64,000 nt of DNA, from assembly GCA_947462335.1 (NCBI GenBank), contig OX381717.1, positions 19,645,166-19,709,165 on the forward strand, in the 5' to 3' direction. Below the pieces are notes generated by a model. It was not told the origin of the DNA and ran no database searches. It saw only the letters and a program-made list of their open reading frames with translations. Positions 5,851 to 61,249 of the stretch are shown here, piece by piece. A program made the position numbers and the translations under genes. Numbering within the stretch: position 1 is the stretch's first letter; each line of letters starts with the position of its first letter. Source of the DNA: Harmothoe impar (taxonomy: Eukaryota > Annelida > Polychaeta > Phyllodocida > Polynoidae).

Positions 5851-8039
5851 TTAGACTACATTAATATCACATAGCTGCAGAGGACAGGGTGGGTTACCGC
5901 CAACATACATGCCCTCACATTGTCCCAGGGGACAGGTGCAGTGAAACACCTGCACAATCAGCTCTGACTCCGTAGAATTCCCCGAGAGATGACATTTACC
6001 AAAGTGGCCGATCATTGTTCTAAATGGTTGTGTCAGTTTGACCATTGGGTACAGATCCTTTGGGTTGTAGGCTGGACAAGACGGGTCTCGTTTAGTTTTG
6101 ATCGTCACCGTCACATTTACTTTCACAATGACAGCTAATGGGATGAAGAGAATAACAGGTTGATATTCTTCTATAGTCACACATGTAGTGGCATCATTGT
6201 CATTGACCTCAACAGCTTCTCTCGAGTGACGTTCTTTTGCTTGTTTTATCACTGCCACATTTGGACCAGGGTCACAATCTGAAATAAAACATTTGCACCG
6301 TTAACTGTGCCTGGGCTGTGACCCAATATTGCCATGCCCTGGTTTAAAATCTGAAATCAATGATATACACCTGAAGTTAACAACAACATGTTGTCCAAAG
6401 TTTTATTTCCATTTCCATTAACTTTGTCATCATGATGCACCAACACAGTGCCCCAGAGTAAGTTAGTAGCATCGTATCGGTGCATCATGCAGATCCTTTA
6501 GTGTTGCATCATTTTGGCAAAACTATCATTGTGTAATAAAGTGCTATACTTGTCTGAAAGGGTTAAATGTAATGAGCTTGAGTTAAACATATCTATTCTT
6601 TAAAATCAGAGCCAAAATTCAGTTTTGATGAGATAGAAAACCTCTTCTAGAGAATGTATTAATTCAGACACCGTCGCAAGTTTTTCTTTTCTCCCAGTTA
6701 AACACAAACTTGTACCTCCATCAAATACTTAAATATTTAAGCTAGTGAGAGAGCTTTTTCAGAATGCGTGTGTATTAACTGTCTTGAATCTACATGCATG
6801 GCAAAACCTGCTCACAGTTAGTTTTATGTATTACATGTTCATATCTGAAAGAAGATTTCTTAAACGTGAGTAGTATAGTATGTATCGGAACGGGACTATA
6901 GTTAAGTACTGTTTATTACTCAATCGATATGCAGCCAATCAGAGGCCGCCATTTGGTCACGTGACCCGTTGCCATGGTAACGTGACCTACTTAGGGCTCT
7001 CAGCCAATCAGAAGCCAGCATTCTGGGTGACCTACTGACCTACTTAGAAGCTCTCAGCCAATCAGAGGCCGGCATTCTGGTAACCATGGTAACGTGACCT
7101 ACTTACGTCACGTGACCTACTTAGGCTCAGCCAATCAGAAGCCGGCATTCTGGTTACTAGGGTAACATGACCTACTTAGGGTTTTGTTTGTAAACAACAC
7201 CACGTGGCTCTCTTGTTTGTAAACAACACCACGTGACACGTGACTGTTTGTAAACAAACAACTTATATATAGAAAATAAACACAACAAGTTCCATGTTAT
7301 GTTAAAATTATATTTTCAAAAAAAAGCACATCTGTTACAGCGTCTATGTGTAACTACGCGCGTTCTCATTCAAACACTATAACACTATCATACCGTAGCA
7401 GCAGCAGGTAGGACTGGAAGAAAAGCAAGCGCACGAGCAGAAGCGACGACACCATTTGCACCATCCGGCCGTCGCGTTGGTAGCCCTACTACTCGTCGCG
7501 CGTTCAACTGGAGGTTTAAGAGTGACAAATGACGATTCTTTGTCGACGCGACTGCTAACATCAGCAGCATCAGCAGCATCGGCAGCATCGGCAGCAGCAT
7601 CGGCAGCAGCGGCAGCAGCCTCGGCAGCAGCGGTAGCAGCAGCAGCAGCAGCGGTAGCAGCAGTAGCGTGAGCATTAGCAACAACAGCAGCAGCGACAGT
7701 AGCAAGGGCGGCAGAGCGGGCACTAGCAGCGTTATCAGCGGCGACATCGGCAGCCGCAACAGCATCAGCAGCAGCAGCGTCGGCATCGGTGGCATGAGTA
7801 GCTGCATCGGCGGCAGCAACAGCAGCAGTCACAGCCGCAGCGGCAACAACAACAACGTCATCACAACCAGCGTCACTAACAGCCGCAGTAAATGCAGCAG
7901 TAGCACGCTGAGCAGCACTAGCAGCAGCAGTAGCAGAGGCTACAGCATCAGCTTCACATTCGCGCGCCGCTTCGTCATTCCGCTTCATGTCACGGTAGCA
8001 ACTTTCCATCATGGGGATCTGCAAATTGAGGCGCGGTGC

Positions 8040-8090
<51 letters not shown>

Positions 8091-11000
8091 CAGTAGTAGT
8101 AGTAGTAGTAGCGTGAACGATGATGACGATGCCGAATACGGTTTCACTCCCCCTTATATACCCTTACTCCCCCCTTTTTTTTCAAGCCACCGGCCAGCTG
8201 CCCCCTCACGGCAGGTCTTTAGATCAGCCTTAAGTCGCTTACTACGCGGCTCATCATCCCTCTAATCGCATTTTCCAGCCGCCGGCCGGCTGACTGCTGA
8301 CGACAGGAGAGGGTGATTTGTTTTTCTTTAGATTTAAGCCGCTTACCACACGCGCACCCTCTAGTCACAGACAGAGTGACAGAAAGGGAGGGGGTCGCTT
8401 TGTTCACGCTACCTGTAGTTGTTTTTCTATACACACGCTGAGCCCATGACCCGCTAATCCTTTATACAGGTAACACGCGTTCAACTAATTACTCTATTGT
8501 ATGACAGTCGGTACACGGATTTAATTTTAAACCACCTTCCCATCTGGATCCATGTCTGGCGGGGTGGAAGGATCCAGCTGAAAAGCGTGATTAGGGCTTT
8601 TGTTTCTCTTATGATAGCAGCAGGTCAGCATGCGACAGCTGAAAATGTCAGACTCGCCGCTCCTATAAAAGACTGAGATGCGTCTCTCTTTCCACACACC
8701 CTTCTACCATCGCCGCCGACACCGCCACCGCCGGCCAGCCGACCGCCGCCACCGCCTGCAGTCACCGCCATCACGCCAGCAGGGAATTTCGAGCTGAGTC
8801 TGCTTATTGCTTATTTTTTTTCTTTGAGCTTTTTGTTTTTTAAAATTTTTATTTTCACTCAGTCTTTTTTGTTTCGGAGGAAAGAAATATGGCGCTGCAG
8901 AGGGCGCGAGTTTCTTAAAGACGGTCGCGCGAACAAAGTGCCCTCCTCAACTGCCCGGCTATTTTTTTATCTCAAAGGAGAGAGCGTCACGTAGTTGAGG
9001 TTCACTCATCTCTTGAAGCGTACCGAATTCTCGAGAAATGCAAAGCTGAGCGCCATCGTCGTTATACAAAAGCGGAAAAGGAAAACGTAGCGACATGGCC
9101 GAGAGCCGTCTTCTCAGAACAGTATTTACTCTACCATTGCATAACAGCCGCTCTCAGCGCCCCCACTCGTTGGGCGTTTCATGAAAAGAAAGAGCGCCGC
9201 TACTCTCCTCACCCTGCCTCCTCTTATAAAGTGAGAATAAGTGCTATGAAACGATTCGACAAGCCGATCAGTTTCTTGGGAGCGACTGCAGCTCCCACTC
9301 GGTGGGCGCGCGTTGTGGCCGACGTGAGCACGGTCTCTAAACGTTTCGACGTCGTCACTTGTTATCCCGCATATTGCAACGCAGCCGAATTGAAGAAGAT
9401 AGGGACGCACTATTTTAAACCATACGCTCCAATATGTATTTGTCACCGCCGCGCTCACACGCCTTATTGCTTTTTCGAGACGATCGTATCACAACACAGA
9501 AATAGAAAAAAAAGCGGCAAAGCGACGAGCTTTGCCTAAATGATCAAAAAAAAAAAAAAAAAAAAAAAATTAATCTCCTCCTCCTCCTCCTCCTCCTCCT
9601 CCTCCTCCTCCTCCTCCTCTCCCTCTTCTTTTTTAAAAAAAAAATAAATATTTGTATCAGACTCCTCTGGAGTCTGATACAAAACATTTATGACTATTGA
9701 GTGAAAATAGAATTTTATCGCAAAAAAAAAAAGAAAAAAAAAGACACTTCTGCCGCCGCTACTGTGACACCGGCCGGAATCAATAAAAAGGTCGGCGGAC
9801 TTTTCTCCACAACCATTCACTACCGACCATTCGAGTGAGAAACACAGCAGACAGTCAGACACACAACCGCTCTCTCACGCGTGCTGAAAAAAAAAAAAAA
9901 AAAAATGTCGAGCAGTAGAAGCAAACTTTTCACAGAAATTCATTTCGACGCTCGACTACAAGGACCCTTTAGTTGTATCATCAGCGGTCCGTCGGGTTGT
10001 GGAAAATCGCGCTTGGTGGATCAATTTCTGAGCGACGTGAACAATTTGGTCACGCCGCCGGTGGAAAAGACTTTTTACCATTACGGCGAGTGGCAACCTC
10101 TGTTTGAAAAAATGCAAAATCAGTACGGTGTGGAATTCAGAGAAGGTCTTCCTAGCAAAGAGACTATAGCGGGAGACGTGGAAGTAGCAGAAGACGCCTT
10201 ACGACCCCACACTCTACTGATATTGGACGATCTGATGAGCAGTTCCAATCAGCAAGTGGTAGCCGACATCTTTACTAAATACTCGCATCACTGGAACGTG
10301 AGCGTCATATACATCACTCAGAACCTATTCCAGAAATCACCCGACTTTCGAACTATGAGTCTGAACGCTCACTACATGATCGTTTTCAAGAACCCGCGCG
10401 ACATGGGGCAAATAGCTAGTCTGTCTCGCCAGGTGTTTCCGTCCAACGCGGCGGCCCTCTCTAGTATATTTACCCATGAACTCAAGCGGCCTCACTCATA
10501 CCTCCTTCTGGACTTCAAGCAGTCAACACCTGACGATCTGAGAATACGCTCCTCTTTGACGTCCATACACTCTCAGCTAGTGTTCGTACCGCTAGACAAA
10601 AAAAAGAACAAGAGAAAGCAGTAGCAAAAATGTCTTCTCATCTACTCGAAAGACACTTTGGTACTCTCAAGCACTTAGCTAAGTGCTCGCCAAAGGACTG
10701 CTCGCATCTAATAGACTCTGGAAGCGACGATCTGATCGCAGCGTTGAGTGAGATCTGTCACAATTTACTGGTAGGGAACATCCCGCTCAGCGACAAACAA
10801 CTGGACAAGCTTCGAGAATCGGCTGACGTGTTGAGGGAGGTCGGCAAAAAATCTACGCCCATCAAAAAAAAGAGACGCGTCTTGGTACAAGAGGGAGGTT
10901 TCCTCATTCCGGCTCTCATAGGGATGGCCTTACCGCTTATAAAGAGCATTCTCCGTATATGAGACACCTCATTCGACACCTACTCGCCGACAGCACCACC

Positions 11001-14000
11001 ACCACTACCGCCACCACCAGCGTCATTGCCACCGTCGTCCCCATGACGGACTCAGAGCAGCAACAACACTACAAACGCTTAGCGCTCGTGGATCCTGAGA
11101 CGCTCTACAAATCATCACGAGCAGGTCTACTTCATCATGTGCCCGCTGCTGCTACTACTAGCGCTGCTACTACTGCAGTCGCTGCTGCTAGTACTTCTAC
11201 TGCTCCAAACCTTCCTCCTCTTCCTGATGAGCGCACTGAAAAGAACGAGAGTTCCGCTCCTGCCACCGCCGCCCGCCTACCTGCCGACATGGCCTATTAC
11301 CACAAGCAGGCAGAACAGTCCCTTCATCCCGACGCGGCCTTGCACCAGGTGCTACAGTTTATCTACAGGGACTTGGACTTAGTGTTGAACGATCCCACTT
11401 TGGAATCGCGCGAGAAAATGTTGAAATACCGAAGGTTGTTGAATAGATTGCAATTTTTTCTCGCGAATCCCCACAACAGCAACATCTCTTCGTCCTACTC
11501 TTCTTCGCCCCCGGCTCACCTCCGTCAGTCTGCTGAAGAGGCCAGCGCGTCCCTACTTGAGCGGTTGGCGAACCAAGTTCCCAAGAGGAATCGCACCCGG
11601 ACCGTGGCGCTGTACAAACAATTGGAGAAATCCGGTGTGATCAAGTGGAACGAGGACGGTGCGGTGCGCGAGATGTCGGGTCGGAGAATACCACCTGAGC
11701 ATCGCATCAACATAGTGGACTTACTGAACGACGCCGCCAGGTTCAGGAAGACGGCGCCCAGACCGGCGGGCTACTCTCCGTTCACGAAAGCGCTGTGCGA
11801 AGCAGTTCCCACAGACTCCTTGATCGGAAACCATCTGTATAAAGCGAGCGGACCTGGCCAAAGCTTAGACACACGGCTCGCTGACAGAGGTCGGAAACGA
11901 CCGAGCTTCCACTCGGAAGAAGGAGAAGCAGCAGCAGCAGCAGCAGTAGCAGCAGCAGACTCTTCTCTCCAGGTGGACGATCCATCCTCTGACGACGAGG
12001 AGGACAGTGAACTTTTCCAAACTCCGACTTCCTATAGGAGCGTGGCGAGTAAGAAAAGGAAAGGGCGCAACCGCCTAGCGGCGAGGTCGTCGTTCACGCC
12101 CTCAACAGGCCCACCATGGGCAAACCAGTGAAGAGACTGACCAAGAAGGAAAAAGAAAAGAAGCGCGTAGTAGCTAGATATACCGATGTCAAAGCGCCCT
12201 CCAGTTTCACTAGCGTGACTAAACTCCAGAAACATCATTTTCGCCACCTAAACCCGGCCGTCATCCGAGATGCTTTAGTGTCGCTGGACGCCTACACTAA
12301 ACATAAACCCATTCGGAGAAAATTCGCAAGGAACAAGACTATAACCGGCGCAATCGATCAGCAGTGGCAGATAGATCTGATGGACATGCAAGCTTTGGCG
12401 TCTCACAACGACCGCTTCCGGTACGTGGTGACGGCGATCGACGTTTTCTCTAGGTACGCGTGGGCCGTTCCCATTAAATCCAAGAGCGGCGCTGATGTCA
12501 CCGAGGCCTTCCGAGAGATGACAGGCACTGGTGAGAGACGATCGCGCACTGTTCAGACAGACAAGGGGAAAGAGTTTTTGAACAAGATCTTTCAAGATCA
12601 CTTGAAGAGCGAGGGCATAGAGTTCTTCACTGGCGAGAACGACGACATCAAAGCTAGTCTAGTGGAGCGCTTGAACCGCAGTCTGAAGGAGAAGCTGTGG
12701 CGTTATTTCACACACAAGCGCACGTATCGCTACGTAGACATACTGCACCATGTAGTGTCTTCTTACAATCGCACTCACCACAAGACGTTGAAAATGGCGC
12801 CGGCTCAAGTCAGCTCGGAAAACAGCGAAACAGTTTTCTACCGACAAGATCTCCCAACTAACAAACAAATCGACGAAATATGGAAAAAGAAGAAAAAAAC
12901 AATGACGTCCGCCGTCGACGTCATCGCTCCGGGTGACAGAGTGAGGATGTTGAGAACTAAAGGCGCCTTCGACAAAGGGTACGAGGGAAACTGGCGCGAG
13001 GAAGTGGTCGACGTTGCTAAGACGTTGGGAAGCAGAGGGTTCGAGCTGAAAGACGACAAGGGCGAGGAGATAAAAGGCGTCTTCTACCCGGAAGAGGTTC
13101 AGAAGGTGTACAAGAGTCGTTACGACAACAACTACCTGATAGACGAGGTGTTGCGCTGCAAGACCGTTGACGGTAAAGAGTTAGCTTTCGTACGTTGGTT
13201 AGGTTACGACGACAAGTTCAACGAGTGGATCCCCGTCAAAAAAATAACGTAGAAAAAAAAAAAAAAATGAACATCACTCTACCTAGCAACAGCTCTATGG
13301 AGTATTATCCTGACAACAGCTTGACGTCTTTCCGAACTCACTTCGACTCGCCGCTCCTTCTGCCCGAAGCGTACGAAGCGGCTCTGACTGAGATCATCCT
13401 CCCTACAGAATGGACTAACGTGCACGACGACGACTTGATCATCGTTGTTCCTCTGCGCACCAAGGGTTCGCTAGAGGAGGCGATCAACGTTTTAAAAGAA
13501 ACTAAATTCGCCGAAGGAAGAAAACCACAGGTAGACTGGAGGGGAATGAAAAACGCGAACGGTCTGAGCAAGCTGACGTTCAGCTCAAAATACCCGCTGA
13601 GCTGGAAGGAAGCGAGCTATGTAACGGTGGAAGAGATATCAGACACGTCAGAAGAGCAGCGATTGAAACCGGAAACAAAAAGGTTCAAGAGAGAGGTCGA
13701 CTTGAGACAGACGAATGCCGTATACAAGCAGTTCTTGTCCCCGGCGGTGAAGAAGAAGGCGATCAGCGATCAAGCAAGACAGATGATCGAAGAGATGGAG
13801 AAAGACATGGGAGTGCGCAGTTTCATGCCAAACATATTCCAGATACCTCCTATTTTCACCGGAAGCAACCACACCCTAGTCGAGCGCTTGAGTGAGACGA
13901 TGCGAGATGACAGACTAGAGGGCTCCAGCTTCTTGCTCAAACCGATGCGGATCTTATCGTACGACGCCAACACGAAACGCGTCACCATCAAACCGCCGAG

Positions 14001-35630: not shown

Positions 35631-35697
<67 letters not shown>

Positions 35698-44121: not shown

Positions 44122-44340
44122 ATGGCCGCTTCAAATTGTAAAGGTGCGCGATTTCACTATTCAAAAAAACAAAATGGCGAGTTTGTGAAAGTAGTGTATA
44201 GAAGAAGCCCCCTTTATGGTGGGATTGAACTGTGGAATAATATGGATGATTCCTGTCTGTTAGCCAAGTCAAGAGAAATCTTTAGAACTAAGGCTAGAAC
44301 CAAACTATTGGAGCTCTATTTGTTAAAGCTGAAACAGTAG
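44122..44340 (+). pseudogene. Possible LINE ORF2 C-terminal fragment
   Basis: A 72-codon frame whose product contains SPLYGGIELWNNMDDSC followed by a basic helix (SREIFRTKARTKLLELY). This resembles the end of many non-LTR retrotransposon ORF2 proteins, where a G-I-x-L/I-WN motif precedes a short helical tail. Isolated and without the upstream reverse transcriptase. Confidence 0.4.
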
Positions 44341-48266: not shown

Positions 48267-49054
48267 GGCTGTGTCTCCCCAACTTGGGCCAATGTTTTTG
48301 TCTATGACCGGGTGCCATCTATGACTGGGTGCCGTCTATGACCGAGTGTCATCTATGACTGGCTAAATAAAAATGTTGTTTTTTTTGTTTTTTTTTATAC
48401 TGTGATATGTTAGGGGATCAAAAAAGTTTATGGAAATACTGTTCTGGAAAAAATAAGACAATTCACCTATAGGCATGGGCCGCAACTGACGCTATTTATA
48501 GCATTCCCGTGACCCAGTTATTATATAGTAGAAGGGTCCGTCAGTAGGCACTCTACACTGGTGACCTGTGTATGGTTCTCTGTTATATTTTACTCCCCCA
48601 CTGTGCTGTGGCTATGGAGGACAGTCTCGCAGCAAAGTTGGTGCAAGGCAGAGGGGGGACTTTGTTAAAAAATGCTGTATAATTAGTTGTATATTTATTG
48701 GTGTATTCTGGATACCATGAATACTATTTATTATGCCTAATGATTATTATGTGACCTTTAAAGGAATTTAAATGCATGTATTTTCGCCACAATCCAATGC
48801 TCAAAGCAGATGGGGGACTTCTAGTGACGGACCCTTATTCTATAACACCCACCCAACCACTGCTTGGCGATGTAGGTTCATGCCCTTGCCTATAGGGGCC
48901 TGTACATAGAGGTTTCCTTGCTACCCGGTCATAGATGGTGCCCGATCATAGATGGCACCCAGTCATAGATGGCACCCAATCATAGATGGCACCCAATCAT
49001 AGACAGCACCCGGTCATAGATGAAAACATTGGCCCAAGTTGGTGAGACACAGCC
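48267..49054. mobile_element. MITE with tandem GTCTATGACCGGGTGCC arrays in its ends
   Basis: About 790 bp. Left end GGCTGTGTCTCCCCAACTTG then four TCTATGACC-type units; right end has six inverted units, then TTGGCCCAAGTTGGTGAGAC and ACAGCC. Same family as 19421-19723 and 41043-41525 with a shifted motif (CTATGACC for CTTTGACC). Confidence 0.8.
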
Positions 49055-51545: not shown

Positions 51546-51551
51546 TGCCTT
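51546..51551. repeat. Target-site duplication TGCCTT, left of element 2
   Basis: TGCCTT directly precedes the left terminus; the same six bases follow the right terminus (61244-61249). Confidence 0.9.
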
Positions 51552-52009
51552 AGTAGTATAGTATGTATCGGAACGGGACTATAGTTAAGTACTGTTTATT
51601 ACTCAATCGACATGCAGCCAATCAGAGGCCTCCATTTGGTCACGTGACCGGAAGTGACCTACTTAGGGGATTAGTGGTGACGTCACGTGACCTAGTTAGC
51701 CAATCAGAGGCCTCCATTTGGTCACGTGACCGGAAGTGACCTACTTAGGGGATTAGCGGTGCATTCTGGGTAACCCTGCAGCCAATCAGAGGCCTCCATT
51801 GGGTGACCGGAAGTGACCTACTTAGGGGATGGTGCATTCTGGGTAACCTACTGACCTACTTAGGGGACCGGAAGTGACGTCATATGACCTAATTTAGGAT
51901 CACGTGATCGGAAGTGACCTGATGAGTCACGTGACCGGAAGTGACGTCACACGACTTAATGGCCAATCGGAAGCGACCTGATTGATCACGTGACCGGAAG
52001 AAGAAGAAG
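51552..52009 (+). repeat. Left terminal inverted repeat of element 2
   Basis: About 458 bp that pair with 60791-61243. The outer end equals that of element 1. Inside are three near-tandem modules with GCCAATCAGAGGCCTCCATT, GTCACGTGACC, CCGGAAGTGACCTACTTAGG and GATTAGYGGTG, then more ETS-like CCGGAAGTGA and CRE-like TGACGTCA sites. CCGGAAGTGA is absent from the element 1 TIR. The right copy differs by an expanded (TTC)n tract. Confidence 0.92.
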
Positions 52010-52200
52010 TTTTTTTTTGTTTAGGATCCCGTGACTGGAAGCGACGTCGTCACATGAGTGACGCTTTAAGAGACTGCGCGACTTACTAGTAAAAGAAGCC
52101 GTATGATAATAAAAACACAACAATATTTTCTTTTAATTTTTTTTTATTTTTTTTTTCAATCTTGATAAACACTCTATTTTTGAAAAGATGCACACGCTTA

Positions 52201-52206
52201 TTTATT
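52201..52206 (-). terminator. Poly(A) signal downstream of PolB
   Basis: AATAAA on the minus strand 61 bp past the PolB stop, in an A/T-rich stretch next to the left TIR. Confidence 0.6.
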
Positions 52207-52266
52207 TTTTTTTTTTTTCATATCTCTAAAGGACTCGTTGTCACACCGTCAGAATGCACGCGACGC

Positions 52267-55200
52267 TTATAATACAAGTAGCGCACGCCGTCTTTCTCTA
52301 TGGTGTAGGTGACCATTTTGTTTCGCACCACTTTTGAAATTTCTATTTACAGCAATGAGAGTTTTTCGTTGGCGAAGAACATCCAAGAAGGCGTCTGGTT
52401 CCTGGGGGTTTTGTTTCTTCTGTACGCCTTTTGCACTCCATTTTTTGGATTTTCTTTCACCGGTGTCGCTGACTCGATCGTAGCAAATGTAAGTCTTAGG
52501 GTTGAGACTTAGGATCCCGTCACCTTCCCACTCCGCTTTCATGAGCCCCGAAGTTCTCAGATCGTGAAGGTACCGTCTCTCACAACATCCGCCGGGCGGC
52601 GCACACCATTCTCGCACTCTTTCCGTTTTTGTCTTCACGAAAAGCTCTAAGTGCTCGTCGCACACCGCTGTCGGAAGCCACTTTCGTTTCTCTCTGAAGT
52701 ACGTCTCTCTCAGGCGAGGTTTCACTAGGTCATCCAACGTGGCACCGCTGAGAGCCATGTAAAGACTGTCGGTGTCCATTTGACAAAGGGCATAATCGCG
52801 CCGATCGACGAATCTATCCAAGAAGTCGTATGTGAACTCTAACATTTTCAACTTCGCGTACTGGTATACCATGAACCCTATCTGAATAGGGAGGTTGTTC
52901 TTGACCGTTTTCGGTTGTAGTTCGACTTCAAACAGATCGGAAGTCAACTCGGACGCCTTTTTGAAGCGCCACGAATTGGCCAATAGTTCGAACTTCCGAC
53001 TGTCAGTGTATCTCACCGCCGTGTGTTTTTCTTTGTTGCAGATTGTCTTACCGTACGTAGCGTTTCCCATTAACTTGTAACAGTCTGACAGAATTTTCTC
53101 GTTCTCGTTCACGTCGCCACGTCTTCGCGCCGCCGTCACTTCGTCCGCGAAACCGGCAAAGGAGCGTTTAGGTAGGTATTCTACCACCAGCTGCACTTTG
53201 GTGACTATCAAACCGTGCTCTAAATACCACTTGAGAAGCGGCGTTCCCAAGAGAATATTTTTTCCGTGGTAACTCCCTATCAGACATCTCTGAGGCGTGC
53301 TCAACAGCTTTTCTTCCTGCGCAAAGTCTGACATGTGAGGGCCTATGTCCGATTTTGAAACGGTCGCGTTCTTGAAAACGGGGGTCATTTCTTCGAAGTA
53401 CTCTCGTAGGTGAGGCGGCGTAGTGATGTCCACTTGAACTAAACCGAACATTTTCTCCTCTTTCACAGCGGAAAGGATGTCGCTCTCGCTCATCGCGTTT
53501 CGAGACACTTTCAAAGCGTCAACCTTCCAGCGTTGTTGGGAGGCCTTGACCCGCTCATCTCGACGCTTCATCTCTCGCCATTCGCACTCCCACACGACGA
53601 CCAGCTTGTAACCTAACGCTTTCAAGTAAGCGCTTACTCTGGTCGTTCTGTCGCGTCTCTCCTCTCTCAGTGAAGCGCACTGATATCGGTGCGACGGTAT
53701 GCACTCGTGAGCGTGGAACCAACACCCGTGAAACTGGAAAACCGTATTAGAGGCCGCGTGAAATCCGTCCACGCGAATTCTCCGACAGCCTACCGCCATC
53801 TCGCCGCCGTTCAGAGCGTGGCGCAGTTTCACGTCGCGGTCGTGCTCTACGAAGCGTAACCACTCCAAAGCGCTGTGAGAGTTTCTTTGCCTGATTTCGG
53901 GCTTGAACTCGGTCTCGGGCCGTCTCACCGCGTAATAGCCCGTGCAGTGCGCTTCGCTCATGCAGCGCAAGTACAGAGAGTTAGCGTCTAGTCCTAGGAT
54001 GTGTTGGCACGGTCTCGCTTCTTCGCCGTACTTGTGCTCCCTTATCCGCGTGGTGCCCTTCTCGTGAAATCTATGGAAGATGATGGAAGGACCGCCGACT
54101 AGATTCTCTTTGATCAGAGCGTGGAGGACGGCGTCGAACTGGGGAAACGTTGTGAACGCGTCTTCTAGGTTTTGGAAGAGGAAGCGTAAAGTCAAACCGG
54201 CGAGAGAAACTCCGTCTTTCAACATGTCGATGCCGCGATCTTGGAAAAATTTAGCGTGATTTTTCAGAGCTTCTATGAAAGGTTTCACGTCTTTGTTGTT
54301 GTAGTGGATCAAGTAGTCTTCCATAGTTTGCATCTTCTCGTCGGACCAAACTTTCTGACATGCGGCGTAGTCGGATTCGGACATTTTGACGCCCGTCAGC
54401 TCGCTGTCGAAAGCCGATCTCGGCGGCAGCGTTCTGTTTGCCAGTTTCCTGGTAGACGTCATCCATTCGTAAGGAAAGTGACCTTTCTCTTCGTTCCTGG
54501 TGAAAGCTCGCAAATAGGTCGCGTAGTTGTAACCGGGTGCCAAATAGTTGACTACGTCCAAGAAAACCGTGTGCTGTGTGTAAACCGCCAAGTATTGATT
54601 GCTTCTCTTTATGACGCTGAATTCTTGGTTTCTTCGGTCTCCGGAGGCGAAGAACGAGTGAAGGCGTATTTTGATCAGGTTCAAGTCGTAACGCCCCGAG
54701 TTGAAGCCCACCACTGGAGCTTGACGGATGTATCTCAGAAGACGCTTCTTCAGTTGAACTAACGGGTGTCTGGTCTGAGCCGCAGCGAAGCCGCCTGGAG
54801 AAGGGGTGGTGAACGTCGCCTCCTCCAGCAGGAGAGCTTCACCTATCGCCGCATCTAACTTCGCTAACGTCGGTCGGTAAAGTTCTAGCACAGCTTCCCC
54901 GATCGCTTTGGCGTTCTCGTTTATGTGATTTAAAACTCGGTCCAACAAGGGGTCGGAATCTGCGTCGGACGCTCTGACGAAGCAGACGGGCCCCTCCCAC
55001 CCCGGAAAGTCGGATGCGACGCTAGCCGACAAAGGGACGTGATCCCACAGCAGGGACACGTGCTCCGTCGACGGTTCTTTGCACGGTCTGAAGAAAGCCT
55101 CGAAATCGAAGGCGATCTTGTAAGGGTAGATTCCGGAATGTCCGTCGGGGGGAAAAATGGAGAAGTCTGCTAGCGCTTCGAAAATCGTTCTCGAATTTTG

Positions 55201-56346
55201 GTAGATGCCACCTACGTAGCGCAACTTGACTTGTCGGCAAGAGGAAAGCTGGTTCCTGTGTCTCTTCAGCAAGAACTCGGTGGTGAACGCCGCCTTACAC
55301 TTGCAACATTCGTATATGCCCGCGTACGCGTTGAAGTCCGTGACGAGAGAGACGTGCAAACCGCCTTTCGCCGTCAGGTGTAGGTTGACTTTACCTCGGG
55401 CGGCCACAGTTCTGGAAGGCGGTCTGATCAGAGTAACGCGTCTTCTCAACTTCCGCCCCGGCACTTGACGCGACGCGGTGTAAACCGCTATTTGTACGTC
55501 AAACAAGTTCTCTAACGCGGGTAAGTCGCGGATGTTCAGACCCGGAAAGGATTCAGGTGTGGCAGCGGGACAGAACTGACGTAACAAATCTGAAGCGCGC
55601 TTGCTGGTGTTGTATAAGTGAAAGGAAATGCAGCGGAAGATGCAGAGGTTGTCCTTGTTGGGAAAATCTAACACGCCGCTTCTCTTTCCAACTCGACCGG
55701 CCTGAGTGATCCTACCGCCTATGGGGAATTCCCCCGGTCCCATGTAAACGCAGATGTTCAAATTGGTAGGAAAAAGAACGTGCCACTTGGTGTCAGCGTC
55801 GCAAAGTTTCCGTACCTCCTCGCAAGCGACGGTGTTTTGCATCTTTGAGAGGAGCTCTTCCAAAGTTTCTGAATTAGTTACAGTAGGGAGCGGTTGTATG
55901 AGAGTTGCGTTGTTCTGGGAGGCGTGGAAGTAGCGCAGTTTGCTCTTGTCTTCTCTGTGTTGTAACAGTAAGCCTACCGAGAAACCCACTTTGTATCTGA
56001 ATCTTTGTGTCAAGTGAATGCGACGCATAGTATCTACAGCGTCACTCAACTCGCCGGTTGGTAGCCTGAAGTTTGTTACACTCACGCGAGTCCCGTGCAT
56101 CCTGACGCCCGTTTGTATCGCAGGCCAATTCGCCGTGAACGTTTCCTCCCCGTTCGGTACAGCACATATGCGCGGAGGGAGGGTCACCCCGTCCAGAGAT
56201 TCGCGTCGACAAGCGCTCTTTCGGCAATCCCCTTCGCCGCATAGAGGGCAAAACTTAGCTACTACTCTACAATTTTCTACGTGTCTCTCGTGGTTGTACG
56301 CTCTTTTAAACATTTTGAAACACTTTTCGCATACGTACTGTGTCAT
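52267..56346 (-). CDS. Protein-primed family B DNA polymerase (PolB)
   Basis: About 1359 residues; the element's replicative polymerase. Start is the ATG at 56346; an in-frame GTG at 56358 is not used, and AAAAAAAAC lies directly before the ATG. Visible (numbered from the GTG frame): an N-terminal Cys/His zinc-finger segment (about 10-50); an NLCIFRCISFHL / HVSLV block common in Polinton polymerases; a CxxC-H finger at about 351-374; exonuclease motifs FDFEAFF (418-420), GFNSGRYDLN (553-558) and YNNKD (686-690); polymerase motif A LDANSLY (791), a Vsr-like endonuclease insertion DGFHAASNTVFQFHGCWFH (from 864) with VVWECEW; motif B KLMGNATYG (1095-1103); motif C DTDS (1195-1198); and PKTY (1287-1290). 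All key residues are present, so activity is expected. This is the only polymerase in either element. Confidence 0.95.
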   Translation of the reverse strand: MTQYVCEKCFKMFKRAYNHERHVENCRVVAKFCPLCGEGDCRKSACRRESLDGVTLPPRICAVPNGEETFTANWPAIQTGVRMHGTRVSVTNFRLPTGELSDAVDTMRRIHLTQRFRYKVGFSVGLLLQHREDKSKLRYFHASQNNATLIQPLPTVTNSETLEELLSKMQNTVACEEVRKLCDADTKWHVLFPTNLNICVYMGPGEFPIGGRITQAGRVGKRSGVLDFPNKDNLCIFRCISFHLYNTSKRASDLLRQFCPAATPESFPGLNIRDLPALENLFDVQIAVYTASRQVPGRKLRRRVTLIRPPSRTVAARGKVNLHLTAKGGLHVSLVTDFNAYAGIYECCKCKAAFTTEFLLKRHRNQLSSCRQVKLRYVGGIYQNSRTIFEALADFSIFPPDGHSGIYPYKIAFDFEAFFRPCKEPSTEHVSLLWDHVPLSASVASDFPGWEGPVCFVRASDADSDPLLDRVLNHINENAKAIGEAVLELYRPTLAKLDAAIGEALLLEEATFTTPSPGGFAAAQTRHPLVQLKKRLLRYIRQAPVVGFNSGRYDLNLIKIRLHSFFASGDRRNQEFSVIKRSNQYLAVYTQHTVFLDVVNYLAPGYNYATYLRAFTRNEEKGHFPYEWMTSTRKLANRTLPPRSAFDSELTGVKMSESDYAACQKVWSDEKMQTMEDYLIHYNNKDVKPFIEALKNHAKFFQDRGIDMLKDGVSLAGLTLRFLFQNLEDAFTTFPQFDAVLHALIKENLVGGPSIIFHRFHEKGTTRIREHKYGEEARPCQHILGLDANSLYLRCMSEAHCTGYYAVRRPETEFKPEIRQRNSHSALEWLRFVEHDRDVKLRHALNGGEMAVGCRRIRVDGFHAASNTVFQFHGCWFHAHECIPSHRYQCASLREERRDRTTRVSAYLKALGYKLVVVWECEWREMKRRDERVKASQQRWKVDALKVSRNAMSESDILSAVKEEKMFGLVQVDITTPPHLREYFEEMTPVFKNATVSKSDIGPHMSDFAQEEKLLSTPQRCLIGSYHGKNILLGTPLLKWYLEHGLIVTKVQLVVEYLPKRSFAGFADEVTAARRRGDVNENEKILSDCYKLMGNATYGKTICNKEKHTAVRYTDSRKFELLANSWRFKKASELTSDLFEVELQPKTVKNNLPIQIGFMVYQYAKLKMLEFTYDFLDRFVDRRDYALCQMDTDSLYMALSGATLDDLVKPRLRETYFREKRKWLPTAVCDEHLELFVKTKTERVREWCAPPGGCCERRYLHDLRTSGLMKAEWEGDGILSLNPKTYICYDRVSDTGERKSKKWSAKGVQKKQNPQEPDAFLDVLRQRKTLIAVNRNFKSGAKQNGHLHHRERRRALLVL

Positions 56347-56550
56347 GTTTTTTTTCACTCGGTTACCAACTACTTAGCCGTCTAACTATCTATCTATCTA
56401 TCTAGCCATCTATCAATCTGTCGTCTATGTAACTATCTTTTCTGTCTGCTGTCTGTGTATCCGTCTGTCTGTCTGTCTGTCTGTCTGTCTCATACAGCGT
56501 ACGTCAAACGCTGTGTGTGTGTGTGTGCGCGCGTGAGCGTTGAGCGTCTC
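56347..56550. repeat. Spacer between PolB and the PC4-like gene with microsatellites
   Basis: About 200 bp with (CTAT)n near 56385-56404, (GTCT)n near 56461-56490 and (TG)n near 56512-56526. No TATA box was seen for PolB on the minus strand, so PolB may be read from the upstream gene's transcript. Confidence 0.6.
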
Positions 56551-58113
56551 TCATTCCGAATCTATGCCGAGATATTTCAGAATGATCTCTGTTTTGTCAT
56601 CCAACTCTTTGAGCGCTCTGGCGGACAGCGTCACCCCCTGCTGTGTGGGTTTTTTGTCAGGACCTTCGTACTTGCGCACGTGGACGAGGTTCTTACCGCT
56701 GTAGTAGCTCACAGCTGCGTACACTTCGCCCGCCTCATCCAGCACTGCGAACCAGGGGGTGTGATTAGGTTTTCCTTGCGCGGCCGCTGTGTCGCGTATG
56801 CGCACCACTGCGCGGATATCGGCGATGCGTGCTATGAGCTCGCGCAGCGCGTCGGCCGTGAAGTGCACTCGCTTGCTTCTGGTCAGAGACGCCTCTTTCA
56901 CCTGGCCGTCTTTTGTGTAGCGCGGCCTCCTAGACAGTCTAGCCACGTCCTCCCAGATCTCCAGCGTCAAAGCTCCGTCTAAGCAGAACTCTAACCCGAG
57001 TGTTTTCTCTGCTTCTTCTCGTCCATCTCCTTCTTTTTCTTGTATTTTTCTCTTCTTAGTGGGCCTTGTTGTTCTGGAACTCACCTTAGAACGTTTCACA
57101 CCCGCAGGATGAGTAACACCATCAGCGTGAGCTGAATCAGCAGCAGAACCGATAGCAGGAGCAGCGTCAGCGCTGGTGGTATCGGAGGTCTCGTTGTTGG
57201 AACAGCGCAGCCACACGCCGTCCGTGCTGTGTGTAGCGGTAGAAGATGAAGCGCCGCCGCCGCCCTCGTAAGGTGGCGGTGAGGGCAGTCGCCACGGACC
57301 GGACGGGGGGGCGCTAGCAGTGGAGGAAGTGAGGTCGAAAGGTCGAAGAGGGAAGCCGAAAAACGTACCGCTCACCCCTTGCCCTTCGGGTTCTTCGTAC
57401 GCCTCGTCGTCAGCGTCGTTCTCTGTCTCACCCTGTTGCTGCTCCTCCTCCTCCTCTTCTTCTCGGTTCAGGGGCTGAGTGTCCGAATAGCTGTAACTCT
57501 CAGCGCGAGCGGCGTCGAGGGCGTCCGTCGATGTAGTGGTGGAGGAGAGGGGCTGTGCAACGTGCGGCAGGTCATCAAAGTCATCAACAGTAGTGGGGAG
57601 GTAAAAACCCGGTTGCCAGTACTGCGCTGTGCCAGGAGCGTTGTCGTCAGTAGTAGTAGCAGTAGCAGCAAGTGCAGCAGAAGCAGCCGCAGCAGGCGCA
57701 GCCGCAGCCTCAGCAGGCGCAGCCGTAGCAAGCGCAGCAGTAGCAGGCGCAGCAGCAGCAGCAGCAGCAGCAGCAGCGGCAGGCGGGACGGCGGTAGCAG
57801 CGGCAGCGCGCTTAGCAGCAACGTGTACCGTCGCGAGTGTAACAACGTCGCTAGCACGACGACTGCTACCAGTAGTACTACTAGTACTACTACCACTACT
57901 ACTACTACTGCTACTACTAGTGCTACTGCTACTACTACTACTACTACTACTACTACTGCCGCGAGCGCTCGCTACAGCAGGAGGGTGATAAGACCAACCG
58001 GCTGCGGCGGTAGTCTCATGTTCAGTAGCAAGAGCAGGCACTGACGCTAAACGAACGCTGTTCCGCGTAGTCTTCTTGTTCTTGAACGCCGCTAGCTGTT
58101 GTCTTTTGCTCAT
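56551..58113 (-). CDS. Ala/Ser-rich protein with two PC4-like ssDNA-binding domains
   Basis: A 520-residue protein from the ATG at 58113 (CACCACCATGA, good Kozak). The N-terminal half is low complexity: a Ser run from (AGT)n, a long Ala run from (GCN)n and an acidic Glu/Gln patch. A basic nuclear-signal-like cluster (RPTKKRKIQEKEG) precedes the C-terminal 149 residues, which hold two similar modules. The second (about 459-516) has SYYSGKNLVHVRKYEGPD and GVTLSARALKEL, matching the PC4/Sub1 pattern of a curved sheet plus helix; the first (about 374-433) has LEIWEDVARL and RVHFTADALRELI. PC4-type domains bind single-stranded DNA and act in transcription or replication. The neighbouring PolB makes an ssDNA-binding replication role plausible. 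Family assignment is by eye. Confidence 0.65.
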   Translation of the reverse strand: MSKRQQLAAFKNKKTTRNSVRLASVPALATEHETTAAAGWSYHPPAVASARGSSSSSSSSSSSSTSSSSSSSSGSSTSSTTGSSRRASDVVTLATVHVAAKRAAAATAVPPAAAAAAAAAAAPATAALATAAPAEAAAAPAAAASAALAATATTTDDNAPGTAQYWQPGFYLPTTVDDFDDLPHVAQPLSSTTTSTDALDAARAESYSYSDTQPLNREEEEEEEQQQGETENDADDEAYEEPEGQGVSGTFFGFPLRPFDLTSSTASAPPSGPWRLPSPPPYEGGGGASSSTATHSTDGVWLRCSNNETSDTTSADAAPAIGSAADSAHADGVTHPAGVKRSKVSSRTTRPTKKRKIQEKEGDGREEAEKTLGLEFCLDGALTLEIWEDVARLSRRPRYTKDGQVKEASLTRSKRVHFTADALRELIARIADIRAVVRIRDTAAAQGKPNHTPWFAVLDEAGEVYAAVSYYSGKNLVHVRKYEGPDKKPTQQGVTLSARALKELDDKTEIILKYLGIDSE

Positions 58114-58170
58114 GGTGGTGACTGTAGAGAGCAGCAAAAAAGAATGAGTGAGTGAATGGAAGTTTCCAAG

Positions 58171-58181
58171 CCCCTTATATA
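58171..58181 (-). promoter_or_regulatory. TATA box of the PC4-like gene
   Basis: Minus-strand TATATAAGGGG, 58 bp upstream of the start codon, giving a short leader of about 35-40 nt. The same 11 bases occur in element 1 at 8150-8160. Confidence 0.75.
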
Positions 58182-58218
58182 CGCCTTCTCGCTTCTAGAG
58201 CTAAGCTACTTACCGACC

Positions 58219-58798
58219 CTGTTCAGCTGCCGCCGGCTGGCCGGCGGCCATTCACAAAGAGAAACAAAAAGACATAAGGCATGACGTTTTCAGCTGGATC
58301 CCTTTCCCCCCCCCCTCTTTTGAGAGATCGACTGTGATGATGAGCTAAGCCGCTTACCACCCTGTTCAGCAATTCAACGCGCATTAGCTGTATAAAGGGT
58401 TAAGCGGTTGCTGCCTGCCGTCGACTGACCGGCGGCGGCCATTCACAAAGACATAAGGTATGACGTTTTCAGCTGGATCCCTTTTTGAGGGATCCACTGT
58501 GGTGAGCTAAGCCGCTTACCACCCTGTTCAGCCATTCAGCGCGCGTTAGCTGTATAAAGGATTAACGGTAACGGTGATGAGCTTACAGTGTGTATACAAA
58601 AAAAAACTGCCGTCGACTGACCGGCGGCGGCCATTCACAAAGACATAAGGTATGACGTTTTCAGCTGGATCCCTTTTTGAGGGATCCACTGTGGTGAGCT
58701 AAGCCGCTTACCACCCTGTTCAGCCATTCAGCGCGCGTTAGCTGTATAAAGGATTAACGGTAACGGTGATGAGCTTACAGTGTGTATACAAAAAAAAA
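58219..58798 (+). repeat. Three tandem promoter-like repeats of about 192 bp
   Basis: Copies at 58415-58606 and 58607-58798 are practically identical with a period of 192 bp; an older copy lies at 58219-58414 with small changes. Each contains GACCGGCGGCGGCC, TTTTCAGCTGGATCC, GCTAAGCCGCTTACCACC, CTGTATAAAGG and, in the two younger ones, CAGTGTGTATAC. Confidence 0.9.
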
Positions 58799-58889
58799 CT
58801 ACAGGAGGCGTGTGGCGTGAAGCAGGACCCCCCTAAGACGAACGTGTCTGTCTGTGAGTAGAGGCGTGTGCATGTGGTGAGCGACTTAA
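58658..58889 (+). promoter_or_regulatory. Collinear regulatory block shared with element 1
   Basis: In order: TTTTCAGCTGGATCC (58658-58672), CTGTATAAAGGATTA (58742-58756), CAGTGTGTATAC and ACTACAGG (about 58779-58804), CTGTCTGTGAGTAGAGG (58848-58864) and GTGGTGAGCGACTTAA (58874-58889). The matching block of element 1 lies at 8334-8584 in reverse. It stands upstream of the rightward death-domain gene. Confidence 0.8.
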
Positions 58890-59264
58890 GTGTAAGACAA
58901 AAATCGCCACCTCCTGCCGTGGTGAGTAGACCGGGCCGGCCAGGCGGGCGGGCGGCCGGCTAGTTCAATAGGGAGGGGTGACAGCTGCCTAAGGCTGTGC
59001 ATGAAAAAAAATCCGATTTTCACCTGACCTCTGACGTTTGTTACAATGAATGTCAGAGGGAGGGAGACGTCCTCGGGTAGGGGGTAGGAGGTATTAAGGC
59101 TATGAGTGAGGAAAAAACACCGTTTTCAGCTGGTCTCCACGGATAGCGATGCCACACCCCCTCGTCATCTAAGCTCTTAAGGAGCGGAGCGGCTGAAAAA
59201 GCGTCATGCGGACAGGGTGCTAGACAGCTGGAGCGCTGTTGGAAATGGGATTAAACTCCCTCTG
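58890..59264 (+). other. Promoter-proximal region of the death-domain gene
   Basis: No gene. GC-rich stretches with GCCGGCC-type palindromes (about 58933-58960) and a further TTTTCAGCTGG motif at about 59114. Confidence 0.5.
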
Positions 59265-59273
59265 TATAAAAAG
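59265..59273 (+). promoter_or_regulatory. TATA box of the death-domain gene
   Basis: TATAAAAAG preceded by CTCTG. The predicted start near 59295 leaves a leader of about 120 nt, mostly (CCACCG)-type repeats, before the ATG at 59419. Confidence 0.65.
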
Positions 59274-59356
59274 CTCTCATTTCTGTTGGAAAAAAAACAT
59301 ATCACCTCTGACCCCAGTAACGGCTACTACCACCACCACCGCCACCACCACCACCG

Positions 59357-59387
<31 letters not shown>

Positions 59388-59418
59388 TGCCGCCGCCGCC
59401 AAGACGAGACGAGACGAG

Positions 59419-60168
59419 ATGGCTCAAGCTATTCCACTTTCAAGCTCGCCTTCACCGCCTGGTGCGCCTGAAAATAAGTTAATGCGGCTTGACGACGTGA
59501 GACGCGGCGCGAGGCAGCAGACCGATGATGGGGAGACCCGACAGGTAGGACAGCGGCGGTTAGCCTATAGCGACGCCTTGCTTCGTCAACTAGGTAAAGA
59601 GTTGAGCGGCTGTTGGAGAGAGTTGGGCAGTAGCTTAAAAGTCAGCGCCGCCCGTATGGATGCTCTAGTAGAGCGCAGTGTCAAGACACCGGAGGAGCTG
59701 TGTACGGCGATGTTCCGAGTGTGGTGGGGTGAAACCCCGCATCGTCATAGATGGGGCGAGCTCGGTCGCGTCTTCACCCGCATAAGACGCATGGAACTGT
59801 TGGCTCAGTGGATGGCCCTTCTCCACAGACAGGGGTTGGATTTCGAAAACCCCGACTCGCGCGCGATGCACAAGCACTTGGGCACCCTCGGCAGACGTCT
59901 GGGTAGCAGGTGGAAAGAGGTGGGGGACCATTTAAAATTGTCGCCTGAGAGGTTAGATAAGATCGCTGAAGAATGCGAATACGGAGGAAGTCCCGCTGAG
60001 TGGGCCTTCCGAGTGTTGAAAATGTGGCAAGATGAAGCTGACGGCGCCGGCGGTACGCCTTTTGAACTCCTTCGAGTGTTGACTGAGGACATGGGAAAGT
60101 TTGGCCTCGGCATCGCGATATTACTTGACTTTATCAAGCAAGAAACAACGAGAACGACGGACATGTGA
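59419..60168 (+). CDS. Tandem death-domain protein
   Basis: A 249-residue protein made almost wholly of two death-fold repeats. Repeat 1 (about 52-132) has LLRQLGKELSGCWRELGSSL, KVSAARMDALVE and CTAMFRVWW. Repeat 2 (about 152-238) has HLGTLGRRLGSRWKEVGDHL, KLSPERLDKIAEE, AFRVLKMWQDE and FELLRVLTEDMGKFGL. The spacing of the conserved Trp, hydrophobic helices and the RVLxxW segment agrees with death domains of FADD, MyD88 or ankyrin-type proteins. No enzyme domain, membrane segment or signal peptide is seen. The ATG at 59419 (GAGATGG) is chosen because the TATA box at 59265 lies upstream of it but downstream of the earlier in-frame ATG at 59245. A likely job is to bind host death-domain adaptors and alter apoptosis or innate signalling; this is inference. 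Confidence 0.8.
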   Translation: MAQAIPLSSSPSPPGAPENKLMRLDDVRRGARQQTDDGETRQVGQRRLAYSDALLRQLGKELSGCWRELGSSLKVSAARMDALVERSVKTPEELCTAMFRVWWGETPHRHRWGELGRVFTRIRRMELLAQWMALLHRQGLDFENPDSRAMHKHLGTLGRRLGSRWKEVGDHLKLSPERLDKIAEECEYGGSPAEWAFRVLKMWQDEADGAGGTPFELLRVLTEDMGKFGLGIAILLDFIKQETTRTTDM

Positions 60169-60320
60169 ATTGTTGTGTTTTATTTTCATACGTCTTCTTT
60201 ATTAGTAAGTAAAAAAAAAAATATCATAACAATTAAGACGCGCGATCTCTTAAAGTGTCACTTCCTCCAGTCGCAGCTGATCGCCTCATCGCAGCACGTG
60301 ATAAACAAAAAAAAAACGAA

Positions 60321-60360
60321 GAGACGCGCTTCTTCCTCTCGAGAGGAAGAAGCGTGTCTC
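60321..60360. repeat. 40-bp near-perfect palindrome
   Basis: GAGACGCGCTTCTTCCTCTC followed at once by GAGAGGAAGAAGCGTGTCTC; the halves pair over 20 bp with a single mismatch (a G-U pair in RNA). It lies about 150 bp past the death-domain stop and could be an RNA stem at a transcript end. Confidence 0.85.
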
Positions 60361-60417
60361 TCGATTGAAATCTTTTTCTTTTCTTTTTTTCTTAAAAGAG
60401 ACAAACGCCCCTTAGAG

Positions 60418-60558
60418 TGCTCCCCCACCCCCCTAGAGTGCCCCCCTCCCCCCTCCCCCCCTCCCCCCCACCACTCGCCCCATGCATCCTAAAAGCGCCC
60501 CCCTCCCCATGCATCTTAAAAGAGCCCCCCTCCCCCCCTCTCCTCCCCTCCCCCCCTT
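60418..60558. repeat. C-rich tract able to form G-quadruplexes on the other strand
   Basis: About 140 bp with many runs of four to seven C, interrupted by repeated TAGAGTGC and GCATC(C/T)TAAAAG phrases. On the minus strand this reads as dense G-runs. Confidence 0.8.
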
Positions 60559-60618
60559 ATACACTCTAAAGAACGCTTCTACCTAGTTCAATAAGTCACT
60601 TCCAGTCGCTCGTAAAAC

Positions 60619-60624
60619 AATAAA
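60619..60624 (+). terminator. Poly(A) signal downstream of the death-domain gene
   Basis: AATAAA about 450 bp after the stop codon, the first clear signal on the plus strand before the right TIR. Confidence 0.5.
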
Positions 60625-60788
60625 AAATGAAAAAAAATGAAAAAAAAACTTATATCGTAGTGTTTTTTATTAGTTTACCGAAAAAAAATAAGAGACTCGC
60701 CTCCTCCTCCAAAAAAAAAAAAGATATCACATTTTAAAGCCCGTGACCCCTTAAAGACGCTCATCTCTTCATTAAGTCGCGTGACGTC

Positions 60789-60790
<2 letters not shown>

Positions 60791-60819
<29 letters not shown>

Positions 60820-61243
60820 CTTCTTCTTCTTCTTCCGGTCACGTGATCAATCAGGTCACTTCCGGTCACGTGATCCTCAATGAGGTCACTTCCGGTTGGC
60901 CATTAGGTCATGTGACGTCACTTCCGGTCCCCTAAGTAGGTCAGTAGGTTACCCAGAATGCACCATCCCCTAAGTAGGTCACTTCCGGTCACCCAATGGA
61001 GGCCTCTGATTGGCTTCAGGGTTACCCAGAATGCACCGCTAATCCCCTAAGTAGGTCACTTCCGGTCACGTGACCAAATGGAGGCCTCTGATTGGCTAAC
61101 TAGGTCACGTGACGTCACCACTAATCCCCTAAGTAGGTCACTTCCGGTCACGTGACCAAATGGAGGCCTCTGATTGGCTGCATGTCGATTGAGTAATAAA
61201 CAGTACTTAACTATAGTCCCGTTCCGATACATACTATACTACT
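60791..61243 (-). repeat. Right terminal inverted repeat of element 2
   Basis: About 453 bp inverted against the left TIR, starting in a (TTC)n tract (60791-60835) and ending CTATACTACT at 61243. Confidence 0.92.
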
Positions 61244-61249
61244 TGCCTT
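61244..61249. repeat. Target-site duplication TGCCTT, right of element 2
   Basis: Exact copy of 51546-51551, abutting the right terminus. Confidence 0.9.

Follow-up and report, generated by a model that had tools for sequence, protein, structure and literature searches.

A probable bipartite Polinton in a polychaete genome: complementary capsid/integrase and polymerase elements with shared ends

This study analyzed a window of 64,000 nucleotides from the genome of the polychaete Harmothoe impar, in which two mobile elements, designated E1 and E2, are separately inserted (Table 1). The window contains no N, and the coordinates and sizes given in an earlier note, together with the separate 6-bp duplication (TSD) flanking each element, were reproduced. 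The inverted arms of E1 comprise 321 nt at 98% identity and 82 nt at 99%, and the inner part of its left repeat consists of CCAAT, CACGTG, and GACCTACTTAG repeats; those of E2 comprise 342 nt at 99%. The earlier note had described the outer 95-100 bp of the two elements as nearly identical, and comparison of E1 with E2 revealed 98% identity over the outer 98 bp.

Table 1. Features of the two elements, with positions in the window
Feature	Position	Strand	Remarks
E1 capsid/integrase element	6869..17390	+	10,522 bp; TSD AACGTG on each flank
E1 left TSD AACGTG	6863..6868	.	
E1 left inverted repeat	6869..7261	+	begins AGTAGT; outer 98 bp common with E2
E1 packaging ATPase, Adeno_IVa2/Pox_A32 type, 239 aa	9905..10624	+	Pfam E 1.3e-5
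E1 390-aa ORF, likely virion or core protein	10959..12131	+	no family match; suggested by position
E1 RVE integrase, D87 D149 E184	12116..13252	+	Pfam rve 3.2e-12
E1 372-aa ORF, likely penton/minor capsid protein	13267..14385	+	position only
E1 141-aa basic ORF, possible pVI-like protein	14397..14822	+	position only, no family match
E1 major capsid protein, double jelly-roll, 435 aa	14902..16209	+	AlphaFold2 and Foldseek
E1 adenain-type maturation protease, 150 aa	16239..16691	+	Peptidase_C5 E 1.4e-4
E1 right inverted repeat	16999..17390	-	
E1 right TSD AACGTG	17391..17396	.	
E2 polymerase element	51552..61243	-	9,692 bp; TSD TGCCTT on each flank
E2 left TSD TGCCTT	51546..51551	.	
E2 left inverted repeat	51552..51893	+	outer 98 bp common with E1
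E2 family B DNA polymerase (PolB), 1359 aa	52267..56346	-	Pfam DNA_pol_B_2 E 3.5e-7; homologues
E2 520-aa protein, C-terminal PC4-like domain	56551..58113	-	Pfam PC4 E 1.2e-4
E2 307-aa protein, two Death-domain stretches	59245..60168	+	Pfam Death E 1.9e-7
E2 right inverted repeat	60902..61243	-	
E2 right TSD TGCCTT	61244..61249	.	

Among the E1 genes named earlier, the ATPase, integrase, major capsid protein (MCP), and protease were borne out by Pfam or AlphaFold2, whereas the penton and pVI-like labels found no family match. The capsid gene gave no match in the Pfam search. Its AlphaFold2 model (pLDDT 86) matched the mavirus MCP (6g44; Foldseek E 2.1e-16, TM 0.57/0.50) and also PBCV-1, and the 435-aa protein is, on this predicted fold, a double-jelly-roll MCP. 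The 372-aa ORF had no family match, and its structure model, predicted without an alignment, was unusable (pLDDT 31). A C-terminal chromodomain, an adintovirus feature, was weak in the integrase (Pfam Chromo E 0.0021; 18.4 bits, below the 25.1 cut-off). Queries of PHROGs and of PDB sequences with the capsid alignment, the remaining E1 ORFs, and the E2 Death protein were uninformative. E1 yielded no polymerase gene.

The PolB, PC4-like, and Death genes of E2 all had Pfam matches, with the PC4 match (21.9 bits) falling under the cut-off of 25. PolB carries what we take to be the motifs of an exonuclease and a polymerase, together with a Cys/His pair of OTU-like type; the motif scan placed the Cys- and His-bearing motifs, which may mark an N-terminal OTU-like domain such as adintoviruses have, from residues 232 and 331. 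Both elements had been called complete, and the ends and duplications agree with this; however, the last ~36 PolB codons of the window copy lie in a different frame from those of the other 29 fetched copies. The complementarity of the two gene sets was confirmed by the Pfam matches and the capsid model.

Polintons are described as one-piece elements. The pair resembles Polintons/Mavericks (Eupolintoviridae; adintoviruses) in its PolB and RVE integrase, in its A32/FtsK-type ATPase, adenain-type protease, and double-jelly-roll capsid, which are present on E1 only, and in its ~400-bp inverted repeats, 6-bp duplications, and AGTAGT...ACTACT ends. It differs in that the integrase is present on E1 and absent from E2 and PolB is absent from E1, so that genes carried there by the same element are here divided over 10.5 and 9.7 kb. 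According to the available text of PMC8097293, vertebrate Mavericks also end in AGTAGT...ACTACT and measure 12.7-24.6 kb; the accessible part of PMC4028283 gives 15-20 kb for Polintons. E1 and E2 each fall short of the 12.7-24.6-kb range, and their sum fits it, as the earlier remark that the two add up to a normal single-Polinton size had implied.

Words from the elements were counted in the 1.51-Gb host genome. The terminus word, allowing up to three mismatches, occurred 6,989 + 6,992 = 13,981 times; a reversed-pattern control gave 0 matches, and a chance origin of the terminus matches is therefore excluded. The termini counted amount to the ends of about 7,000 elements. There were 2,482 occurrences of the PolB word and 1,555 of the capsid word, an inequality that we counted against the bipartite reading proposed below. 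These word counts run to thousands, whereas the available text of PMC8097293 reports at most 38 intact Mavericks per vertebrate genome and a few hundred with decayed copies included.

Individual copies were then read from scored candidates (34 of 9,340 for PolB and 97 of 2,815 for the capsid). All 30 fetched E2 loci, including the window copy, reach the same left terminus beside PolB. All nine right ends that were read belong to E2, and eight of them have their own 6-bp TSD, revealing precise insertions of ~9.7 kb. Eight of ten E1 copies taken from the 97 listed capsid matches have both ends and their own 6-bp TSD, at 10,323-10,530 bp; a clean direct TSD is missing in 2/10 E1 and 1/9 E2 copies. 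PolB is open through its first 1,339 codons at 30/30 loci in a score-ranked listing that favors intact copies, and the capsid frames are open in the 97 scored matches, where the listing has the same bias. The earlier note had proposed that integration and replication operate in trans. Since E2 lacks an integrase yet has been inserted repeatedly with its own duplications, integration in trans was upheld; the same logic applies to the replication of E1, which lacks a polymerase.

A sample independent of gene content was drawn from the first 100 exact ends in C1:1-6.2 Mb. It yielded 39 paired-end elements, 24 at 9.09-9.88 kb and 13 at 10.38-10.54 kb, the two main size classes thus holding 37/39 pairs, with one element each at 6.96 and 15.93 kb. 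Fourteen of the 20 exact PolB words in this sample lay inside pairs (6.96-9.75 kb) and six outside; none lay in the thirteen 10.4-kb pairs, one of which was read inside. Among the places listed on C1 (14 for the capsid, 100 for PolB), the closest two of different kind lay 56 kb apart. No element with both the PolB and the integrase/capsid sets was found among the copies examined, many of which were counted by their ends rather than read internally; a joint element may have escaped these samples. The expectation that elements with this terminus would fall into two coding size classes and never form a joint element thus held for these copies, but the family is not of two kinds only. E3 (15.9 kb) and E4 (~9.4 kb; one type occurring in two orientations) carry the same ends as E1 and E2, and no viral genes were found in them. 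E3 had been considered as a joint element and was rejected when, on reading, none of the ten window proteins used as queries matched it. E3 and E4 appear to ride on the E1/E2 machinery as satellites and may be non-autonomous (MITE-like) derivatives, for which no full-length parent was found in the samples examined. Because E3 and E4 have the shared ends too, possession of these ends is not in itself proof of a genome in two segments.

These findings make it probable that E1 and E2, which are separately inserted, high in copy number, complementary, and near-identical over their 98-bp ends, constitute one bipartite Polinton whose parts supply each other in trans. The pair has two genome parts, complementary genes, and shared termini, as in a bipartite virus. 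In the predicted cycle, protein-primed copying by the E2 polymerase would begin at the common ends of E1 and E2. These ends would also be cleaved by the E1 integrase, which would insert either linear molecule into host DNA with a 6-bp duplication; the shared end would serve as a common recognition site for both enzymes. The ATPase, capsid protein, and protease of E1 are predicted to package either element, and E3 and E4 would be carried as satellites by the E1/E2 machinery. The pair itself would have arisen by the splitting of a one-piece Polinton.

Public homologues were also compared. The nearest integrase (P0161) was 99% identical (longest carrier contig 10,510 bp) and the nearest PolB (P0041) 100% identical (9,882 bp), and a PolB relative at 69% (P0043) had a longest carrier contig of 9,859 bp, which is E2-sized. 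Identity ladders ran parallel (integrase 94/81-76/71%, MCP 95/81-79/73-72%, PolB 77/69%). PolB and integrase matches coincided in carrier contig size at 17,632 bp (P0044/P0170), 16,628 bp (P0046/P0169), and 12,657 bp (P0076/P0173), paired by size rather than by reading; their PolBs were ~52-55% and their integrases 54-55% identical to those of the window, and the PolBs grouped with the window PolB (SH-aLRT 99). Considering PolB contigs of 9-50 kb, 0.03 such coincidences would be expected by chance, and with all sizes under 50 kb at least three coincidences arose by chance in 23 of 2,000 trials. PolB and capsid matches among the public homologues did not coincide in carrier contig size, and neither the capsid and PolB proteins nor the corresponding alignments retrieved relatives when viral contigs were scanned. 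Judged by equal contig size, relatives at ~55% identity thus appear to hold the integrase together with PolB on a single contig of 12.7-17.6 kb, whereas E1 and E2 are divided. Because these relatives seem to be one-piece for PolB and integrase, the split was likely derived from a one-piece Polinton.

The same relatives could also be taken to indicate that a complete Polinton of ~17 kb, bearing these ends, drove E1 and E2 in trans as its non-autonomous deletion derivatives and is today rare or extinct in the host or missing from the assembly. E3 and E4 would then be further derivatives, and a segmented virus would never have existed. Same-ended passengers with no identified viral gene do exist, as this reading would have it. 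We nevertheless consider it unlikely: the copies examined include no joint element, the complementary gene sets are open in many young copies even if the listings favor intact ones, and the E2-sized contig of the 69% PolB relative and the parallel ladders argue against it. Alternatively, E1 might be copied by other polymerases with no need of E2, and E2 might be an independent self-replicating linear element that gained E1 ends by recombination and hitch-hikes on the E1 integrase. Although PolB words outnumber capsid words and E2 bears PC4-like and Death-domain genes of its own, the lack of a detectable polymerase gene on E1 and the occurrence of close integrase and PolB kin on the same three contig sizes, which favors a single parent over two unrelated elements, render this relationship quite improbable. 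An assembly or annotation artefact, for which nothing was found to speak, can be dismissed, given that most of the copies read at both ends have their own flank and duplication, that the ends number in thousands, and that the window is free of N.

The bipartite Polinton may go further and be a true segmented integrating dsDNA virus, in which replication, integration, and packaging act in trans through one terminus and a cloud of size-matched E4 satellites is carried in its particles, all of these jointly accounting for several percent of the host genome; we advance this only tentatively. Transpovirons and virophages are small DNAs that rely on the functions of a helper, which is a giant virus. 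As far as the available text of PMC8363768 and PMC11071296 goes, bidnaviruses and Vesanto virus divide their DNA genomes into segments and, like E2, encode a PolB of Polinton/adintovirus type on such segments; they combine ssDNA with a parvovirus-type capsid. In contrast, E1 retains the Polinton capsid and integrase. To our knowledge, neither bidnaviruses nor Vesanto virus are a family inserted by an integrase. Among the titles and abstract openings listed in a literature search, with few subscription papers in reach, none reports a split Polinton.

In the accessible part of PMC7805220, several groups of eukaryotic DNA viruses are considered to descend from Polintons. If the bipartite reading is true, a split Polinton would represent a mobile dsDNA virus with a segmented genome, intermediate between Polintons and those segmented viruses that carry PolB, bidnaviruses among them. 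It would also provide a natural trans-complementation test, in which the shared 98-bp end would define polymerase and integrase recognition, and the ends of ~7,000 elements show the extent to which such a family, passengers included, can be amplified.

The window, which contains no N, carries two sharply bounded elements 34 kb apart, E1 with the capsid and integrase genes and E2 with the polymerase gene. An earlier note had described each as flanked by its own 6-bp target site duplication and the two as nearly identical in their outer 95-100 bp. Both descriptions were confirmed, with 98% identity between E1 and E2 over the outer 98 bp. Inward of this stretch, the ends of both elements have in common a CCAAT box, CACGTG, and GACCTACTTAG, arranged differently. 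The inverted arms were approximately 400 bp in E1 (321 nt at 98% plus 82 nt at 99%) and 342 bp in E2 (99%). The first bases of the ends, AGTAGT, match one of the two end motifs given for vertebrate Mavericks in the available portion of PMC8097293. The GC content, in 1-kb steps, was approximately 44-58% within the elements and mostly 34-44% in the rest of the window, except for its first kb (55%).

Features of the window, with an Ala-rich ORF of E3
Feature	Position	Strand	Length	Remarks
E1	6869-17390	+	10,522 bp	AACGTG on both sides
E2	51552-61243	-	9,692 bp	TGCCTT on both sides
UDP-glucuronosyl/glucosyltransferase gene	30707-32263	+	518 aa	single ORF between E1 and E2; Pfam UDPGT 5e-66
Tandem repeat	62402-62796		145-bp unit	just outside E2; diverged copy at 36138
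Ala-rich repetitive ORF of E1	7377-8012	-		
Ala-rich repetitive ORF of E3	L076:641-2041	-		

The gene contents of the two elements were complementary. E1 encodes a packaging ATPase, an RVE integrase retaining the catalytic residues D87, D149, and E184, an adenain-type protease, and a protein of 435 aa that, as modelled with AlphaFold2 (pLDDT 86), resembles the mavirus and PBCV-1 capsid proteins. These four assignments agree with the earlier note. Three further ORFs of E1 (390, 372, and 141 aa) had no family match, those taken in the note as penton and pVI-like genes among them; by position alone, the 372-aa ORF is likely the penton gene. E2 encodes, as proposed, a PolB with its catalytic motifs, a PC4-like protein, and a Death-domain protein. 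E2 is complete in having both ends and the duplication, but its last approximately 36 PolB codons are frame-shifted relative to the other 29 fetched copies. The Ala-rich ORFs of E1 and E3 are possibly mere repeat-born frames.

Both elements recur many times in the assembly containing the window (1.51 Gb, 736 contigs). A 43-base terminus word, with up to three mismatches allowed, gave 6,989 forward and 6,992 reverse matches, and its reversed control gave none; the PolB and capsid words occurred 2,482 and 1,555 times, all of these figures being word counts rather than tallies of whole elements. A capsid search, in which the best 97 of 2,815 candidates were scored, revealed open frames in all 97. 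Ten E1 copies were picked from nine contigs and their ends and flanks were read; eight had both E1 ends and their own 6-bp duplications (10,323-10,530 bp). The copy on C14 lacked the left end at the expected place, and that on C21 (L062/L063, C21:30845061-30855564) had mutually reverse complementary 8-bp flanks without a direct duplication.

A PolB protein search, with the best 34 of 9,340 candidates scored, placed the same terminus beside PolB in every one of the 30 loci fetched, including that of the window. The far end, read for nine loci, was the E2 right end in every case; eight copies had their own identical 6-bp duplication and the ninth had none. Few sites differed within the PolB gene among the fetched copies, and many E2 insertions therefore look young; because ranking was by protein score, the sampled copies represent the youngest tail. 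Two copies (L026 and L027, C2:110003026 and C2:110009341) lie head to tail approximately 6.3 kb apart with an identical junction adjoining the terminus. They may represent a tandem or concatemer-like insertion. Two further elements (L088/L089 and L092/L093) possibly belong to an older E2 lineage: that at C1:785032 has a PolB approximately 89% alike at the DNA level, the match changing frame, and that at C1:2884121 has E2-type repeats.

Element sizes were read from the first 100 exact ends among the matches listed, spanning C1:1-6.2 Mb, of which 22 stayed single and the others formed 39 plus/minus pairs; ends with mismatches, which could be partners of the single ones, lie outside this sample. 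Pair lengths were 9.09-9.88 kb (24 pairs), 10.38-10.54 kb (13), 6.96 kb (one, a truncated E2 flanked by CGCATG as its own duplication), and 15.93 kb (one). The exact PolB word lay inside 14 of the 39 pairs and in none of the 13 in the 10.4-kb class, one of which held a capsid match among the matches listed; 6 of the region's 20 exact PolB words fell outside paired ends. Probes detected PolB in two further pairs (one approximately 89% alike, DNA) and E2-type repeats in a third, and other pairs contained E4 (five), E4-like elements (two), and E3 (one). For 12 pairs of the 10.4-kb class and one 9.28-kb pair, the tally covers the ends only. The proposed two main size classes were present with no pair of 16.5-22 kb in this sample, but alongside the E3 and E4 types.

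E3 and E4 share the ends and carry no viral gene that we found. Each end of E4 (approximately 9.4 kb) bears the 43-base word without mismatch; two oppositely oriented copies, each read for 5.6 kb, were 99.9% alike over 2,650 bp, contained no ORF longer than 104 aa in the stretches read, and gave against the ten window proteins a sole weak, Death-like match (E 7e-4). E3 (15.9 kb, duplication AATGCA) contains 1.13-kb tandem repeats, the Ala-rich ORF, and a 117-aa ORF, with no match to the ten proteins. Insertion therefore does not require an element to have its own integrase, as is directly evident from E3 and, in the case of E4, from the ends and the copies; this supports action in trans; equally, shared ends are therefore no proof of a segmented genome.

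The main rival explanation is that a full-length parent, which has since become rare or disappeared, drove both E1 and E2, the two being derivatives. No relatives were found in viral contigs. In the protein database, the longest contigs with the nearest integrase (99%) and PolB (100%) were 10,510 and 9,882 bp; judged by these sizes, the two are on separate, element-sized contigs. Integrase and PolB relatives at approximately 55% identity had three contig sizes in common (12,657, 16,628, and 17,632 bp). Size-jitter controls predicted 0.03 matches for PolB contigs of 9-50 kb (three reached in 0 of 5,000 trials) and 0.47 for all contigs below 50 kb (23 of 2,000). These equal sizes point to one-piece relatives carrying PolB and integrase. 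PolB and capsid hits (120 and 37) had no contig of equal size; integrase and capsid hits had two (3,628 and 4,673 bp). The PolB tree unites the window's group with the three relatives (SH-aLRT 99); in that of the integrases, these three make up a single group neighbouring the window's, at an unresolved fork. The trees and shared contig sizes therefore suggest that one common set of one-piece relatives lies close to both halves.

The earlier note had interpreted E1 and E2 as a two-segment Polinton with integration, packaging, and replication in trans. For this reading stand the complementarity of the genes, the ends that the two elements share and that number in the thousands, and repeated precise insertion of both elements; against it, E3 and E4 carry the same ends. 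In the titles and abstract openings listed by our literature search, no prior report of a split Polinton was found; the nearest precedent in the available portions of PMC8363768 and PMC11071296 is the segmented PolB viruses, namely bidnaviruses and Vesanto virus. In a segmented Polinton, the polymerase of E2 would start at the shared end and the integrase of E1 would join DNA there, and each half would therefore need the other. Counted at two ends and approximately 10 kb per element, the terminus matches would correspond to some 7,000 elements and to roughly 4-5% of the Harmothoe impar genome.
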